Shown here: positions 43,002 to 51,680 of the stretch, piece after piece
Layout: each line of letters starts with the position of its first letter
Position numbering within the stretch: position 1 is the stretch's first letter
Assembly (NCBI GenBank): GCA_028291405.1
Contig: JAQGID010000461.1
Location: forward strand, 1 to 64,000
DNA length: 64,000 bases
Reading direction: 5' to 3'
DNA from: Rhodospirillales bacterium
Lineage (GTDB): Bacteria > Pseudomonadota > Alphaproteobacteria > ATCC43930 > CGMCC-115725
Translations under genes and position numbers: made by a program
Notes under the pieces: model-generated
Seen by the model: the letters and a program-made list of their open reading frames with translations, nothing else
Databases searched by the model: none
Told to the model about the DNA's origin: nothing

Positions 43002-43337
43002 ATGACCTACGTCGTCACCGAGGCCTGCATCAAGTGCAAGTACATGGACTGTGTCGAGGTCTGCCCGGTCGATTGCTTCTATGAGGGCGAGAACATGCTC
43101 GTCATCCATCCGGACGAGTGTATCGACTGCGGCGTGTGCGAGCCCGAGTGCCCGGCCGAGGCGATCATCCCAGATAGCGAATCAGTGGCTGAGAAATGGG
43201 TCGAGATCAACCGGCAGTACGCTACGGCTTGGCCGAATATCACCCGCAAGGGTGAGGCGCCGGCAGACGCCGACAAGTGGAAAGACGTGCCGGATAAGTT
43301 CGAGCAGTTTTTCAGCCCGGATCCGCCGAAGCGCTGA
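43002..43337 (+). CDS. fdxA: 7Fe ferredoxin FdxA
   Basis: [55 protein letters not shown]. Confidence 0.96.
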
Positions 43338-43601
43338 CGGCGGCGCCGTCCGGTCCGTGCCCCGACGCGGTTTCCCGCGGCGGCGCGCGGCTTGCGCCCT
43401 GTGCATGGCAGGGATGCTGGCTTTTAGGGCCAAATTTTGCTATGGTGTGACACCAGCGCAATCCGAGACCTTACGCGGCTTGCGTTTTCATGGGTTGCGC
43501 CCGCGGACTAGGCGAGATTGTGATGCCACGACTGTCTAATGGCAGCCGTGGATGCCTGTGCCGCGGCGCTGCCCTGAGTTCTGTCACGCGGTTGAGAGCA
43601 G

Positions 43602-44099
43602 ATGATGTCCGACAAAGGCTTTGGTGCAGGTGATTTCGTCGTGTATCCGACGCATGGCGTCGGCAAGATTCTCGGCATCGAGACCCAGGAGATCGCAGGC
43701 TATACGCTGAGCGTTTTCGTCGTCCATTTCGACAAGGATCGCATGACTTTGCGAGTCCCGCTGGCGAAGGCGAAGGGCTCGGGCCTGCGCCGGTTGTCGA
43801 GTCGCAAGGAGATGGACGTCGCCCTCACCAAGCTCAAAGGTCGGTCGAAGGCCAAGCGGACGATGTGGAGCCGCCGGGCGCAGGAATACGAGGCGAAGAT
43901 CAATTCCGGCGATCCTGCCTCGATCGCCGAGGTCGTGCGAGATCTCTACCGCAACGTCGGGCAGCCCGAGCAATCCTACAGCGAGCGGCAGATCTATCAG
44001 GCAGCGCTCGATCGGCTGGTGCGCGAGTTCGCGGCGGTGGAGCGGATCGACGAGACGACTGCGACGCAGCGCCTCGAGCAGATGCTGAACGCCGCCTGA
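43602..44099 (+). CDS. CarD family transcriptional regulator
   Basis: FGAGDFVVYPTHGVGKILGIETQEIAGYTLSVFVVHFDKDRMTLRVPLAKA. Confidence 0.94.
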   Translation: MMSDKGFGAGDFVVYPTHGVGKILGIETQEIAGYTLSVFVVHFDKDRMTLRVPLAKAKGSGLRRLSSRKEMDVALTKLKGRSKAKRTMWSRRAQEYEAKINSGDPASIAEVVRDLYRNVGQPEQSYSERQIYQAALDRLVREFAAVERIDETTATQRLEQMLNAA

Positions 44100-45043
44100 C
44101 GACGCGCGAGCCGGCGACGAGGGAGACCGCCACGAGTTCGCCCGCGCCGGGTCAGCCGACTGCGGGTCAAACCGCCGGCCGGCCGGCGTCCCGCTCCGAT
44201 GCGGGATCCGGTGCGGCGCCTGGGGAAGGACGAAGCCGCGAACGCTTCGCGAGGTTTCGCGCGGCGCGGCGGATCTGGGCCGTTGCCGCCATCCACGGCG
44301 AAGCCGACCGGCTCGCAGCAGTCCACGATAAGCTCAGCCAGGCTTGGGAGAGCGGCGACCGGCTGGTCTATCTCGGCAATTATCTCGGCCACGGACCGGC
44401 GGTCCGCCAGACCATCGCCGAACTGCTTGAATTCCGTCTTGCCGTTCTCAGCGAGCGGCGCGCCTTTGCCTGCGACGTCGCGTTCCTGCGCGGCGGCCAG
44501 GAAGAGATGTGGCAGAAGCTGCTGCAGCTGCAGTTCGCGGTCAGTCCGCGCGAGGTGCTGCAATGGATGCTCGACCAAGGCGTCGCAGCAACCCTTGCGG
44601 CCTACGGCGGCGACGCGCAGCAAGGCTTCCAAGCCTGCCGTGAAGGGCCGCGCTCGATCACGCGCTGGACCAGCGCCTTGCGCGCCAGCATCAATGCGTC
44701 GCCGGGCCATAGCCAGTTCCTCAGCTCCCTCCGCCGCGCCGCCTTGAGTGAAGCCGCGACGGGCGAGCAGGGGGCGCTGCTCTTCGTCCATGCCGGCGTC
44801 GACACCGCGCGACCGCTCGATGCCCAGGGCGACGCCTTCTGGTGGGGCGGCGGCCGGCTGACCGAGCTGAGCGAGCATTTCGCCGGCTTCCGCCGGATCA
44901 TCCGCGGCTTCGACCGCAAGCATGCCGGGTTCGTCGAGACGCCCTTCGTCACCTCCCTAGATGCCGGCAGCGGCTTCGGCGGCGAGCTGATGGCGGCGTG
45001 CTTTGCCCCGGACGGAACCCTTTTGGGAACCGTCGCCGCCTAA
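44100..45043 (+). CDS. Metallophosphoesterase/Ser-Thr phosphatase-like protein, start unresolved
   Basis: IWAVAAIHGEADRLAAVHDKLSQAWESGDRLVYLGNYLGHG; LFVHAGVDTARPL. No ATG/GTG/TTG seen in frame before the conserved region except ATG 43865 inside carD. Confidence 0.75.
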
Positions 45044-45135
45044 CCTCCCCCTCCCGAAGGGTCGGCGCGCAACCATAATCGCATTTGTGCCGTTGGCACC
45101 GTGTGCGCTCCGTCAGGCGCACGACGGGGGACTGA

Positions 45136-46023
45136 ATGGCCCATATCGACGACCCGGAGACGCAGAAGGCCAACCTCGGCTTCATCAGAGCCTCGATGAA
45201 GGAGCCTTTGCTGCTGCGCGACCATGAGTTCGAGCTGGCTCGGCGCTGGCGCGACGGTGCGGAGATTGCCGCGCTCCATGAGCTGGTCTGTTCCTATATG
45301 CGGCTCGTCGTCTCGACCGCCACGCGCTTTCGCAATTACGGGCTGCCGATCGGCGATCTCGTGCAGGAAGGCAACGTCGGGCTGATGCAGGCGGCGGCGC
45401 GCTTCGAACCGGAACGTGAAGTCCGATTCTCCACCTATGCGACTTGGTGGATCCGCTCGGCGATGCAGGACTACGTGCTGCGCAACTGGTCGATCGTCCG
45501 CACCGGAACGACCGCCGCGCAGAAGTCGCTGTTCTTCAACCTGCGCCGGCTGCGCGCCAAGATCGAGGATTTCTCCGGCCGGCCGCTGACCCATGAGGGA
45601 CGGCTCAAGATCGCCGCCGAACTCAACGTCGAGCTTGCCGATGTCGAGGCAATGGAGATGCGCCTCGGCGCTGCCGACCAGTCGCTCAACGCGCCGGTCG
45701 GCGAGGGCGGCGATGACGATTGGCAGGATTTCCTCTCGGACGCGGGACCAAGTCCAGAAGAGGCGGTCATCGGCCAGCGCGACAGCGCGACGCGGTCCCG
45801 CTGGCTGGCCGAGGCGCTCGGCGAGCTGAGCCCACGCGAGCGCGTCATCATCGCGCAACGCCGGCTGCGCGACGAGGGAGCGACGCTGGAGGAGCTCGGC
45901 CGCGAGCTCGGCGTCAGCAAGGAGCGCGTCCGCCAGCTCGAGCACCGCGCTCTGCTGAAGCTGCGGAGCTCGATCCAGCGTCGTGTCGAGCGGCCCGGCG
46001 ATCTCTTCGTCGATTGCGCCTGA
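45136..46023 (+). CDS. rpoH: RNA polymerase sigma-32 factor
   Basis: GLPIGDLVQEGNVGLMQAAARFEPEREVRFSTYATWWIRSAMQDYVLRNWSIVRTGTTAAQKSLFFNLRRLR; C-terminal region 4. Confidence 0.96.
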   Translation: MAHIDDPETQKANLGFIRASMKEPLLLRDHEFELARRWRDGAEIAALHELVCSYMRLVVSTATRFRNYGLPIGDLVQEGNVGLMQAAARFEPEREVRFSTYATWWIRSAMQDYVLRNWSIVRTGTTAAQKSLFFNLRRLRAKIEDFSGRPLTHEGRLKIAAELNVELADVEAMEMRLGAADQSLNAPVGEGGDDDWQDFLSDAGPSPEEAVIGQRDSATRSRWLAEALGELSPRERVIIAQRRLRDEGATLEELGRELGVSKERVRQLEHRALLKLRSSIQRRVERPGDLFVDCA

Positions 46024-46039
46024 TCGCGCCGGTCGCAGC

Positions 46040-47089
46040 TCAGCGGAACTGCGGTGCCACCTCGGCGGCGAACCTTGCCATCTCGTCGCGTACCTGCTGG
46101 TGCGGTTTCAGCCCGACGTTGGAATAGACGATGACCTCGGCGAAGCCGGCAGCCTGGACCTTCTTCAGCGATTCGGTGATTTGTGCCGAGTTACCGATGA
46201 GGACGGAGTTCTCGGTGAGATCCTCCGGTCGCACCTTTTTTAGCCGATTCACCATGTCGATCGAGTATTTGTAGCTCGGCGGCGCGGTCTTCGGATCGCC
46301 CGGCAGCGCCTGGATGACGCACTCTTTATAATAGCGGATCTGGCGGGCGCGGGCGGCCGCCTGCTGCGCCGCGTCATCGGCGAAATGCGTGAAATAGCTG
46401 CAGATCAGCCGTCCCGGCGGGTTGCCGTGCTTGGCGCAGGTCTCGTGGTAGAGGTCGGCGACCTGCTGCAATCCGCCGAAGCTCATCGCCGCGGCGAAGG
46501 GCGCGACGACGAGGCCGCAGCCGAGACTCGCGGCGAGTTCGATCGAGGGCCGCGAGAACGAGGCGACATAGGCCGGGATGGGTTTCTGCACCGGCTGGGG
46601 CGTGATCGAAATGTTGTTGAAATTGTACTTCTTGCCGCGATGCGAATAGGGCTCGCTGCTCGCCCACAGCCGCCGCACGATCGCCATGCCTTCCTCGAAG
46701 GTCGCCTGATTCTCGTCGAACGAGGCGCCGAGAGGGATGTACTCGCCGCGGTCGTAACCGCGCCCGGCCGCGAAATCGACGCGGCCGCCGCTCAGCAGGT
46801 CCAGTGTCGCCCATTGCTCGGCGACGCGGATCGGATGGTGCAGCGGCAGCACCGTCACCGCCGGCGCGAGGCGGATGCGCCTGGTGCGCGCTGCGAGATG
46901 CGCCAGCACGATGTCTGGGCAGGAGAGGACGCCGAGGGTGTTGAAATGATGCTCGCCGATCCACGCTGAATGCATGCCGAGTTCCTCGGCGTACATCGCC
47001 TCGTCGAGGATATCGGCGACGAACTGGTTGGCCGAACGCGTGTTGTTCTCGTAGTGATTGTCGCTGAGGGTGAAATAGCCGAATTTCAT
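46040..47089 (-). CDS. LLM class flavin-dependent oxidoreductase
   Basis: MKFGYFTLSDNHY...GMHSAWIGEHHF; RIRLAPAVTVLPLHHPIRVAEQWATLDLLSGGRVDFAAGRGYD. Confidence 0.92.
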   Translation of the reverse strand: MKFGYFTLSDNHYENNTRSANQFVADILDEAMYAEELGMHSAWIGEHHFNTLGVLSCPDIVLAHLAARTRRIRLAPAVTVLPLHHPIRVAEQWATLDLLSGGRVDFAAGRGYDRGEYIPLGASFDENQATFEEGMAIVRRLWASSEPYSHRGKKYNFNNISITPQPVQKPIPAYVASFSRPSIELAASLGCGLVVAPFAAAMSFGGLQQVADLYHETCAKHGNPPGRLICSYFTHFADDAAQQAAARARQIRYYKECVIQALPGDPKTAPPSYKYSIDMVNRLKKVRPEDLTENSVLIGNSAQITESLKKVQAAGFAEVIVYSNVGLKPHQQVRDEMARFAAEVAPQFR

Positions 47090-47102
47090 TGTCTTGCTCC
47101 TG

Positions 47103-48134
47103 TCAGGCCAATTCGCGGCGGACGATCGCCGCACCCTCGGCAAGCGCCTTCAGCTTGGCGAAGGCAGTGCCGCGATCGATGTATTTCATGCCGCAATCCG
47201 GCGACGGGATGATGCGCTCGGGTTTCGCATGGGCGAAGGCACGGCGGATGCGGCCGGCGACCAGCTCGGCGGCTTCGACCGCCGGATCGCCGAGGGTGAT
47301 CACTCCGAGGGTGATGTCCTTGCCGGCAAGATCGGCGAGGATGCCGAGGTCGAGGTTCGATTGTGCCGTTTCGATCGAGATCTGCGTCGCCGCGCAATCG
47401 GCAAGCTGTGGCAGGAACGAATAAGCGCTTGGCCGCTCGTGCACGACATGCGCGTAGCCGAAGCAGAGATGCACTGCGGTCGGACCGGCGACACCCTGTA
47501 GCGCGCGGTCGATCGCCTTGACGCCATAGCGCATTGCCTTGTCGGGCCGCGCCTGGAGATAAGGTTCGTCGAGCTGAATGACATCGGCGCCGGCTGCCTT
47601 GAGGTCCCTGGCCTCCTCGTTGACTGCCGCGGCGTAAGCCATGATCAGCTCTTCCTCGTCGCGGTAGAAATCGTTCTGCGCCTGCTGCGCCATAGTGAAG
47701 GGCCCGGGCATGGTGATCTTGACCATCCGGTCGGTGTTGCGCCGGAGGAAGGCGACGTCGCCGACCTCGACGGGGATGCGGCGGCGGATCGCCCCGGCGA
47801 CACGCGGCACCGGGTTGGGATGGCCGGTACGGTCGAGAGCGGTCCCGGGATTGTCGATGTCGATTCCTTCGAGCGCCGTGGCGAAGCGGTTGGAGTAGCT
47901 CTCGCGCCGCATCTCGCCGTCGCTGACGATGTCGATGCCGGCCCGTTCCATGTCGCGGATCGCGATCAGCGTCGCATCGTCCTGCGCCTGCTCCAGGTAC
48001 GGCGGCGCGACTCGCCAGATCTCGCGCGCCCGCACCCGCGGGGGCAGGCGGCCGCCGAGATTGCCGCGATCAATCAGCCAGTCGGGCTGCGGATAGCTGC
48101 CGACCACGGTCGTCGGTAAGAGCTTGGTTTCCAT
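47103..48134 (-). CDS. Cobalamin-independent methionine synthase C-terminal-domain (core-MetE-like) protein
   Basis: LPTTVVGSYPQPDWLI; possible zinc ligands HLC (VHLCFGYAH), E (ISIETAQS), C (SPDCGMKY); ~343 aa, no N-terminal MetE half. Confidence 0.88.
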   Translation of the reverse strand: METKLLPTTVVGSYPQPDWLIDRGNLGGRLPPRVRAREIWRVAPPYLEQAQDDATLIAIRDMERAGIDIVSDGEMRRESYSNRFATALEGIDIDNPGTALDRTGHPNPVPRVAGAIRRRIPVEVGDVAFLRRNTDRMVKITMPGPFTMAQQAQNDFYRDEEELIMAYAAAVNEEARDLKAAGADVIQLDEPYLQARPDKAMRYGVKAIDRALQGVAGPTAVHLCFGYAHVVHERPSAYSFLPQLADCAATQISIETAQSNLDLGILADLAGKDITLGVITLGDPAVEAAELVAGRIRRAFAHAKPERIIPSPDCGMKYIDRGTAFAKLKALAEGAAIVRRELA

Positions 48135-48245
48135 CGATCCTCCCGTCGGCGCGCCGGCTGGCTGCCGCGTTCTCGCCAGGGGCAAGTCTTGCACAGGGGG
48201 ACGAATAAGCAAGCAGCGAAAGGCGAGACGGAGGGGAGCGCCGGC

Positions 48246-48731
48246 TTATGCCTCGGTGCTGGCCGATGCCGCCGCGCCGTCGAGGAAAGCCGCGACGTCG
48301 GCGTCGGCACGCAGGATGCGCAGCTCCTCGGCGGAAGGCAGCTGCGGCCGGTCGCGGGATGCGTTGACCATGCAGAGAAAGCCGAAGGCCGCGTCAGCCG
48401 GCGCGCGGAACTGGTGCCAGGTCCACGGCGGGATGGTGACGAGGTCGTACTGCGCGACGGCATGCACTGCATTGCCGAGCAGGCAGCGGCCGCGGCCGCG
48501 CAGGATCATCACCGCGTGAACGTGGCCATGCCGCTCGAGCGTCGAATACCCGCCCGGCGCCATCTCGAAATAGCGCAGCTCGCAGGCGAGCTCGGCTTCG
48601 CTGAACAACGTCTGCCGGGCAATCGCCTTGAAGGGAGCCGCGCCGTCCTCCTTGTAGGGCAGATGGTCGACGCCGTCCCAGGAATAGGCCTCGGCAAAAC
48701 GGCGGATAAGCGGGGCGTTCGGCGTGTCCAT
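48246..48731 (-). CDS. Cupin domain-containing protein
   Basis: MAPGGYSTLERHGHVHAVMILRGRGRCLLGNAVHAVAQYDLVTIPPWTWHQFRAP. Confidence 0.9.
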   Translation of the reverse strand: MDTPNAPLIRRFAEAYSWDGVDHLPYKEDGAAPFKAIARQTLFSEAELACELRYFEMAPGGYSTLERHGHVHAVMILRGRGRCLLGNAVHAVAQYDLVTIPPWTWHQFRAPADAAFGFLCMVNASRDRPQLPSAEELRILRADADVAAFLDGAAASASTEA

Positions 48732-48736
48732 GCGCG

Positions 48737-49891
48737 TCACCGGAAGGAATGCTGCCGCACCAGCGCGGCGAAGGCGGCGGTCTCGTCGGTCAGCTTCTCG
48801 CGCGCGGCGAGCAGGCTGCCGCCGATCAGCAGCATGACGTCGCTGCCGTAGAAATCCAACATCTCCGGCACGCGCTCGATCGTCATGCCGCCGGCCGGCA
48901 CGGGAACGCTCGGCGCGGTGCCGGACCACGCGGCGCGGGCGTTCGTTGCGATCGCCCGGCACGTCGCCGGCGCATAGCCGAAGCGGCCGCCGTAATTGGG
49001 AAAGACGACCGCGTCGGCGCCGAACAGACGAAAGAGCTTGCCGAGCAACAGCGGCGGCGCGATCCGCGCGGCGCCGCCCATCGCGGGATGCGCCATCAAA
49101 GCCATGTCGGGGTTCTCGCGTGACAGCGCCTGGAAGGCCGGCAGCCCGACGATCATCGGCGCGACGAGCAATCCGTCGACACCGCTGGCGCGGGCGATCG
49201 CGACCTGGGCCCGGAGATCGTCGAGCGTGCCGGAGACGCTGGGAAGATAACGTGTCCGGCCACCGGTCGCGGCATTGGCGACGGCGATCGCCGCTGCGAC
49301 GGCCGGCACGCGCGCGGCGAAGGGACTATAGTGCTGGTTGGCGATCCCGTGATCGTCCTTGATGAAATCGATCCCGCCACGCGCCAGGCGACCCGCGAGA
49401 TCCGCGAGGGCCTCGGGCCTCAGCCCCTGCGGCTTCAATGCCGAGCAGGTCAGGGCGCGGCCGATCGCGCCGACGCGCTGCCGCAAGCCGGCGAGTCCGC
49501 CCCGTGGGCCGCCGAACGCCGCAATCATGCTTTCCGGCAAGTCGACGTCGTGCAGCGTGATGTCGTCCTGCAGCGACGAGTTGCCGAACAGCATATTGAG
49601 GAGCTGTCCGGCCTCGTCGCCGGTGGTCGCCGCCGCGAGCGCGATCCGCACCTCGAAGAGGTCGTCGTCGATTTGAGAGATTGCCGCGACCTGCCCGACG
49701 ATGTCGTCGAGGACGAAGCAGTCATCGATCGCCGCCACCGGCATCTCGACGCTTTGCTCGACGGCGAGGGCTTCGGCGCGGGCCGCGATCGACGCCGCGT
49801 CGCAGCGGATTCGATAGACGGCGGTGAGGCGGCCCTCGGATTTGGCTGATCCCGCGCCTCCCGGGCTCAGCCGCAACCCCGCATAGCGCAT
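48737..49891 (-). CDS. RuBisCO-like protein (form IV)
   Basis: TCSALKPQGLRPEALADLAGRLARGGIDFIKDDHGIANQHYSPFAARVPAV; MALMAHPAMGG; VFPNYGGRFGYAP; KDDH where catalytic RuBisCO has KDDE. Confidence 0.88.
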   Translation of the reverse strand: MRYAGLRLSPGGAGSAKSEGRLTAVYRIRCDAASIAARAEALAVEQSVEMPVAAIDDCFVLDDIVGQVAAISQIDDDLFEVRIALAAATTGDEAGQLLNMLFGNSSLQDDITLHDVDLPESMIAAFGGPRGGLAGLRQRVGAIGRALTCSALKPQGLRPEALADLAGRLARGGIDFIKDDHGIANQHYSPFAARVPAVAAAIAVANAATGGRTRYLPSVSGTLDDLRAQVAIARASGVDGLLVAPMIVGLPAFQALSRENPDMALMAHPAMGGAARIAPPLLLGKLFRLFGADAVVFPNYGGRFGYAPATCRAIATNARAAWSGTAPSVPVPAGGMTIERVPEMLDFYGSDVMLLIGGSLLAAREKLTDETAAFAALVRQHSFR

Positions 49892-50045
49892 CGCACCCTC
49901 CCGACACCGCGCCCGGCATCCTGCCGAACCATCATGCCACAGATTTGTGACCGCCAGATTTATCAGCCATCCTGCGACAAGGCGATTTAAGCTGGGTCGA
50001 GGCGGGGCACAATGGTCTTCGCCGATCGAAGGATAAGGATCAGGG

Positions 50046-51680
50046 ATGACGCGCGCCGGCAAGAACGGGGAACGGTTCGACTACATCATCGTCGGCGCCG
50101 GGTCGGCAGGCTGCGTCCTCGCCAACCGGCTGAGCGAGGACGGCACCGCGCGGGTGCTGCTGCTTGAGGCGGGGGGGCGGGACAGCAATCCTCTGATCCA
50201 CGTGCCGCTGGCAATGACCAAGCTCAACCCGGATCTGCGGATCAACTGGCAGCTCGAGACCGAGCCGGAGAAGCATTGCTACGATCGTCGCATCTGGGTT
50301 CCGCGCGGCAAGGTGCTCGGCGGCACCTCGTCGATCAACGCGATGATCTACACCAGGGGGCATCCGCTCGACTACGATCAGTGGCGGCAGAGCGGGCTGA
50401 CCGGCTGGGGCTACGCCGATGTGCTGCCATATTTCAAGCGATCGGAGGGCAGCTGGCGGGGCGAGTCCGAGTACCATGGGGCTTCCGGGCCGCTGACGAC
50501 CTCGCCGCAGCACAATCCGAGCCCGCTGTACGAGCTCTTCGCGACGGCCGGCGAGCGGGCCGGCTTCCCGCGCAGCGCCGACTACAACGGCAGCGAGCCC
50601 GAAGGCATCGCCCGGCCCGAGCTGACGATCGCCGGCGGACGACGCAACTCGACGGCGCAGGCGTTCCTGCGGCCGGCGATGCGGCGGCCGAACCTGACCG
50701 TCGCGACGCGGGCGCTCGCCCATCGCGTCGTCGTCGCTGGCGGCCGCGCTGTCGCCGTCGAGTACCGCCAGAACGGCGAGCTCAGGACGGCCAACGCCGA
50801 TCGCGAGATCGTGCTGTCGGGAGGCACCTATAACTCGCCGCAGCTCCTGATGCTCTCGGGGATCGGCGCGGCCGACGAGCTGAAGTCGCTCGGCATCCAG
50901 CCGGTCGTCGATCTGCCGAGCGTCGGGCAGAATCTGCAGGAGCACGTTAACACCGTGATCACCGTCGACATCGGCGAGCCGATCTCCTTCGACAGTCAGC
51001 TGCGCGCCGACCGCCTCGCCGTCAATATGCTAAAATGGGCGGTGCTCGGGAAGGGCGGCGCCGCCAGCCTGCCGCTGCAGGCGGTCGCCTTTCTGCGGAC
51101 GCGGCCGGGGAGCGAGCGGCCGGACATCGAGCTGCTCGTCAGCCCGGTCGCGCCCGACGCCTGGGTCTGGTTTCCCGGCGTCAAGAAGCCGATCGGCCAT
51201 CGCTTCTCGAGCCGCATCGCGGTGCTCCACCCGCGCTCGCGGGGCCGCGTCGCGCTGCGCTCGTCGCGGCCGGAGGACCCGCCGCGCATCTTCTGGAACC
51301 TCCTTTCCGACCCGGAGGATCTCGCGACGCTGAGGAGCGGCCTCAAGGCGGTGCGCTCCATCTTCGCGCAGGAGCCGATGAAGAAGCTCATCACCGGCGA
51401 AGTGCGCCCCGGACCGGGCACCGGCAGCGACGCAGAGATCGACGAGTACCTCCGTCGCAACTGCGCCACCGCGTCGCACCCGGCCGGCACCTGCCGGATG
51501 GGGGCCGATGCCGATTCGGTGCTCGACGGCAATCTCCGCGTCCGCGGCGTCGCCGGCCTCCGCGTCGCCGACTGCTCGGTGATGCCGCATCTCGTCGGCG
51601 GCAACACCAACGCTCCGACGATCATGATCGCGGAGAAGGCGGCGGATCTGATGCGCGGGAAGGCGGCGCCGGGGGCGTAG
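50046..51680 (+). CDS. GMC family FAD-dependent oxidoreductase (choline dehydrogenase-like)
   Basis: FDYIIVGAGSAGCVLANRLSEDGTARVLLLEAG; RGKVLGGTSSINAMIYTRGHPLDYDQW; SHPAGTCRMG; MPHLVGGNTNAPTIMIAEKAADL. Confidence 0.95.
   Translation: MTRAGKNGERFDYIIVGAGSAGCVLANRLSEDGTARVLLLEAGGRDSNPLIHVPLAMTKLNPDLRINWQLETEPEKHCYDRRIWVPRGKVLGGTSSINAMIYTRGHPLDYDQWRQSGLTGWGYADVLPYFKRSEGSWRGESEYHGASGPLTTSPQHNPSPLYELFATAGERAGFPRSADYNGSEPEGIARPELTIAGGRRNSTAQAFLRPAMRRPNLTVATRALAHRVVVAGGRAVAVEYRQNGELRTANADREIVLSGGTYNSPQLLMLSGIGAADELKSLGIQPVVDLPSVGQNLQEHVNTVITVDIGEPISFDSQLRADRLAVNMLKWAVLGKGGAASLPLQAVAFLRTRPGSERPDIELLVSPVAPDAWVWFPGVKKPIGHRFSSRIAVLHPRSRGRVALRSSRPEDPPRIFWNLLSDPEDLATLRSGLKAVRSIFAQEPMKKLITGEVRPGPGTGSDAEIDEYLRRNCATASHPAGTCRMGADADSVLDGNLRVRGVAGLRVADCSVMPHLVGGNTNAPTIMIAEKAADLMRGKAAPGA

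Follow-up and report, generated by a model that had tools for sequence, protein, structure and literature searches.

Analysis of the window, the whole 64,000-nucleotide stretch of DNA studied here, indicated that four genes lie in a single run on one strand. They code for a RuBisCO-like protein (RLP), a cupin, a core-MetE-like protein and an LLM-class oxidoreductase (Table 1). All four minus-strand genes proposed in a first-pass annotation were confirmed with their positions, domains and order, while two of the spacings were corrected: the RLP and cupin genes are separated by 5 bp rather than 6 bp, and the MetE-like and LLM genes by 13 bp rather than 14 bp. The intergenic gap of 111 bp between the cupin and MetE-like genes (48135-48245) was missing from that annotation; given this gap, the run consists of two close pairs and is not one tight operon.

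Table 1. Genes of the four-gene run, with positions in the window and domain matches
Product	Position	Strand	Length	Domain match
RLP (RuBisCO-like protein)	48737..49891	-	384 aa	PF00016, 83.8 bits (cut-off 30.1)
Cupin	48246..48731	-	161 aa	PF07883, 41 bits
Core-MetE-like protein (folate-domain-less methionine-synthase type)	47103..48134	-	343 aa	PF01717, 116 bits
LLM-class flavin-dependent oxidoreductase	46040..47089	-	349 aa	PF00296, 203.6 bits

A consensus scan of positions 45900-50200, which leaves transcription undecided in this G+C-rich host, revealed neither a sigma-70-type promoter nor an intrinsic terminator, and no G+C anomaly marked the four-gene block (64-71%). The gene for a GMC oxidoreductase (window 50046-51680, plus strand), which is choline dehydrogenase-like and scored 598.8 bits against a cut-off of 605, is divergent from the RLP gene, and a 154-bp upstream region is common to both. 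On the other side of the run, positions 43002-46023 (plus strand) carry fdxA, carD, an unassigned ORF and a gene for an rpoH-type sigma factor, a block that is kept in relatives. Synteny with the relatives extends to the sigma gene and stops there, at the start of the RLP block: the upstream carD-rpoH block is common, and none of the RLP block, GMC, DUF4175, lysA and argH was found beyond rpoH in the stretches of the relatives compared.

The RLP and its cupin partner

The best solved structure for the RLP was 3QFW, which we take to be R. palustris RLP1 (420 bits, 58% identity over 357 residues); the next was 4NAS with 122 bits. The placement among form IV RLPs that the first-pass annotation had proposed as a check was carried out with a maximum-likelihood tree, in which the RLP shared a clade with 3QFW (support 95/85) and did not fall in a non-methylthio clade; the R. 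rubrum RLP itself is absent from the loci compared. The MtnW structures 2OEK and 2ZVI, 4NAS and the Photo-type 2QYG lay outside this clade, 2QYG on a very long branch whose exact position is unsure. The motifs SALKPQGL, KDDH, AHPAM, GGRF, PAGG and LIGG, which represent RuBisCO catalytic positions, are identical in 3QFW. Residues Lys153, Lys178-Asp179-Asp180-His181, His268, Arg303, Gly334/335 and Gly357/358 were invariant in a 15-row RLP alignment and are the same in 3QFW. From its sequence the RLP is predicted to be a 5-methylthioribulose-1-P (MTRu-1-P) 1,3-isomerase of the DeepYkr type.

The NCBIfam model that the RLP matched best was the MtnW-type PRK09549, which would fit a DK-MTP-1-P enolase (MtnW) rather than an isomerase, and an acid-sugar enzyme of the OiaX type was considered as well. 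However, the score for PRK09549 was 158 bits against a cut-off of 409, those for TIGR03332 and OiaX were 116 against 513.6 and 67 against 700, respectively, and the RLP is strongly separated from the MtnW structures in the tree and has as its partner the cupin of the isomerase pathway. An MtnW or OiaX function was rejected on model scores and tree and is regarded as extremely improbable, and the RLP is treated below as a putative isomerase.

The best solved structure for the cupin was 3JZV, which is Rru_A2000, with a 147-residue match without gaps (E 2.5e-63). Alignment of the two revealed that they share the histidines of ERHxHxH and WHQF, which are conserved metal-ligand histidines. The cupin is predicted to be a 1-methylthioxylulose-5-P (MTXu-5-P) methylsulfurylase and an orthologue of Rru_A2000. 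In R. rubrum, Rru_A2000 is the cupin-type MTXu-5P sulfurylase and Rru_A1998 the RLP isomerase, and RLP and cupin homologues are similarly organised in other bacteria (PMC4958253). Deletions and metabolite tracing assigned the same function to RPA2169 (RLP1) and RPA2170 (cupin) of R. palustris (PMC5893883).

The conservation of the neighbourhood, another check that had been proposed, was examined in 80 named RLP loci. In 73 of the 75 loci with room for the test the cupin gene adjoins the RLP gene; as to the exceptions, one named relative has its cupin 1.4 kb away and another has none within the stretch examined. The MetE-like and LLM genes lay beside the RLP gene in none of the 80, so that the outcome of the check is divided between the two halves of the run. 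Class loci gave the same picture: the RLP-cupin pair was adjacent in all 13 that had room for the test, and a further locus ends 38 bp past the RLP gene; since the class loci and the named loci draw on overlapping genomes, these counts are not independent. Besides the cupin, every recurrent gene family was limited to 15 or fewer of the 80 named loci. A plasmid of Terrarubrum flagellatum carries the RLP-cupin pair followed by cysE (L272:6995-9542), and the pair is thus found on a plasmid too.

Methylthioadenosine (MTA) is a toxic by-product of S-adenosylmethionine. The genome from which the window derives (6.48 Mb, 461 contigs, 96.75% complete) was searched for mtnP and mtnA, as the first-pass annotation had suggested, and both were found above their equivalog cut-offs (509.8 bits against 437 and 411 bits against 279, respectively), near one another on a single contig (C237). 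An O-acetylhomoserine (OAH) sulfhydrylase is also encoded (607.5 bits against a cut-off of 495). With mtnP, mtnA, the RLP-cupin pair and the OAH sulfhydrylase, the route from MTA through methanethiol to methionine is complete on paper. The RLP was found in one of the 43 genomes of the order, being absent from the other 42, and in 17 of the 387 class genomes sampled; given this patchy distribution, it was probably gained in this host by transfer. One contig end of the same genome (G000:C449, locus L001) carries a RuBisCO large subunit gene represented by its 3' part, together with an apparent small subunit gene and a ribulose-phosphate epimerase gene, which suggests that the organism possesses a form I RuBisCO in addition to the RLP.

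It is very likely that the RLP-cupin pair is the published MTA-isoprenoid shunt module and that the downstream MetE-like and LLM genes are independent neighbours. In this pathway MtnP would phosphorolyse MTA and MtnA would isomerise the product to MTRu-1-P, whose carbonyl the RLP would shift by 1,3-isomerisation to give MTXu-5-P. The cupin would then strip the methylthio group using a thiol, for instance glutathione, and so yield 1-deoxyxylulose-5-P (DXP) for isoprenoids; the adduct would be resolved to methanethiol, which the OAH sulfhydrylase could return to methionine. We infer all of these reactions from the characterised enzymes of R. rubrum and R. palustris, homology, adjacency and partner genes being what was established in this genome. 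A competing salvage route (mtnB/C/D, Ald2 aldolase) may operate in the same cell. The earlier proposal that the RLP and cupin perform chemistry similar to that of R. rubrum gains support from the match to the R. rubrum and R. palustris pair and from mtnP and mtnA. Two of the three findings that the first-pass annotation had named as contrary to its reading do not apply here: given that match and the presence of mtnP and mtnA, the RLP is not in a non-methylthio clade and an MTA-to-MTRu-1-P route is not lacking. The published methionine-salvage and isoprenoid route would be extended to another alphaproteobacterial lineage, probably via transfer.

The MetE-like protein and the LLM oxidoreductase

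The closest structure to the MetE-like protein was 3RPD (188 bits). The zinc ligands H222/C224/E255/C314 and the homocysteine ligands S13/E74/D189, positions mapped from the residues listed in PMC7857596, were the same in every one of 48 subfamily members. This core-MetE subfamily (57-81% identity), with its invariant zinc and homocysteine residues, is widespread in Alphaproteobacteria, being found in about 46 other genomes among the 387 class genomes sampled (rows counted by hand), and in many genomes of the order of the host. A second copy in the same genome (G000:C377:5345-6361, locus L171) lies beside Rieske oxygenase-like and molybdopterin oxidoreductase-like ORFs, as read by eye. A model search for MesX (DUF1852) gave no match in the genome, while the same model matched in 3 of the 387 class genomes, always next to a homologue 36-37% identical to the MetE-like protein. 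The latter scored 244 bits against a cut-off of 392 for PRK09121, and the threshold for MesD is at least about 55% identity to characterised MesD (PMC7857596). MesD identity was rejected because MesX was not found, on an identity below this threshold and on the distance of the MesX-linked homologues; the protein is thus a core-MetE and not MesD. It is most likely a zinc-dependent homocysteine methyltransferase-type enzyme and an independent neighbour of the shunt pair.

The LLM protein did not reach the curated cut-off of any named LLM subfamily among the matches listed, and its homologues (49-76% identity) had other neighbours in the loci inspected. Four weak LLM matches (26-35%) within the 80 RLP loci were upstream paralogues. 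The protein is probably a generic flavin oxidoreductase, an independent neighbour of the shunt pair and outside the shunt. Likewise, no MetE homologue was found near the RLP gene in the 80 named loci, 68 of which have at least 2.2 kb downstream, nor in the class loci.

The two downstream genes could form a pair in their own right, with the MetE-like protein acting like MesD as a folate-independent methionine synthase and the LLM protein replacing MesX as an oxygen-using methyl supplier. Consistent with this, 3RPD is a MesD protein (PMC7857596), the zinc and homocysteine residues are kept, and the flavin dependence of the LLM protein matches the flavin link predicted for MesX. In most relatives, however, the MetE-like gene has no LLM gene alongside, and in the three that have one nearby it belongs to another subfamily (27-30% identity), on which ground the LLM as a regular partner of the MetE-like gene was rejected; the low identity of the MesX-linked homologues adds to making this pairing very unlikely. 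A wider proposal joins all four genes in one extended pathway, in which the MetE-like and LLM proteins would process the sulfur compound that the cupin sets free, methanethiol or methylthio-glutathione, through thiol methyl transfer and organosulfur oxidation. The single run on one strand, the short gap between the two genes and the thiol-activating zinc ligands kept in the MetE-like protein speak for it, but the arrangement occurred in none of the 80 named RLP loci and in no class locus, the wider gap follows the cupin gene, and the characterised shunt requires just an OAH sulfhydrylase, which is encoded elsewhere here. In the relatives inspected, moreover, the MetE-like and LLM genes lie apart among unrelated neighbours. 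We consider such a pathway very unlikely, and give an equally low probability to a lineage-specific shunt extension in which a MetE-like thiol methyltransferase and a flavin monooxygenase act on the methylthio group leaving the cupin; the support for a four-gene extension is adjacency in one genome. A conserved four-gene operon was rejected on neighbourhood, the MetE-like and LLM genes having no common neighbours in the relatives inspected. The suggestion that these two genes add steps to the route was consequently not upheld, since they adjoin the RLP gene in none of the relatives examined. As to the statement that the four-gene set is undescribed, the RLP-cupin pair is known, and the full set is a lineage-specific juxtaposition and no conserved system. 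The set looks like a known pair with chance neighbours, which clears up a tempting four-gene pathway without support.

A sister RLP clade and comparison with known systems

The RLPs of loci L040 (44% identity) and L041 (35%) formed a sister clade in the tree with support of 100/95 and have no cupin. In both (L041:2688-11627 and L040:2750-5790) split transketolase N and C subunit genes immediately precede the RLP gene, with an MtnA-TktN fusion in L041. Similar clusters occur on annotated rhizobial and other plasmids (L267, L268, L270, L271, L273 and L274, and L269). Rhizobium rosettiformans, Mariluticola, Pararhizobium, Ensifer and Shinella have the order mtnK-mtnA-TktN-TktC-RLP with a divergent sugar ABC transporter next to it, a Ponticoccus cluster carries a nucleoside phosphorylase gene and mtnA, and a Vibrio nigripulchritudo variant an FGGY kinase gene without an annotated mtnA. 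A literature search of open-licence papers found no published description of an mtnK-mtnA-transketolase-RLP cluster, and the sister clade seems to mark an undescribed methylthioribose salvage cluster without a cupin. Since MtnA is present in most of these clusters, the substrate is probably the same as that of the window RLP. We hypothesise that the MTXu-5-P made by the sister RLP is the substrate of a thiamine-diphosphate enzyme, which cleaves it and in doing so may release methanethiol from the C2 unit that it has bound. Were the methylthio sugar phosphate of the window RLP also the substrate of the sister clade, this would be a different mode of thiol release; with a split transketolase in the place of the cupin, the sister clade is more consequential than the main finding and possibly more interesting.

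Comparison with known systems indicated that the MetE-like protein resembles the MesD/MesX system (PMC7857596) in the core-MetE fold without a folate domain and in its zinc and homocysteine residues, but it belongs to a divergent subfamily and DUF1852 was not found in the genome. The RLP shares the RuBisCO superfamily and a methionine-salvage context with MtnW of Bacillus and Geobacillus, which nevertheless forms a separate clade (about 32-33% identity) with another reaction and other partners. The mtnK-mtnA-transketolase N/C-RLP clusters resemble the window pair in having an RLP of its sister clade, most of them with MtnA, but carry a split transketolase and no cupin. Relative to the R. rubrum and R. 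palustris shunt, the window has two extra genes downstream, lies in an order otherwise without RLP and is known from its genes, while it has in common with that shunt a predicted RLP isomerase adjoining an orthologous cupin, with mtnP, mtnA and the OAH sulfhydrylase elsewhere in the genome.
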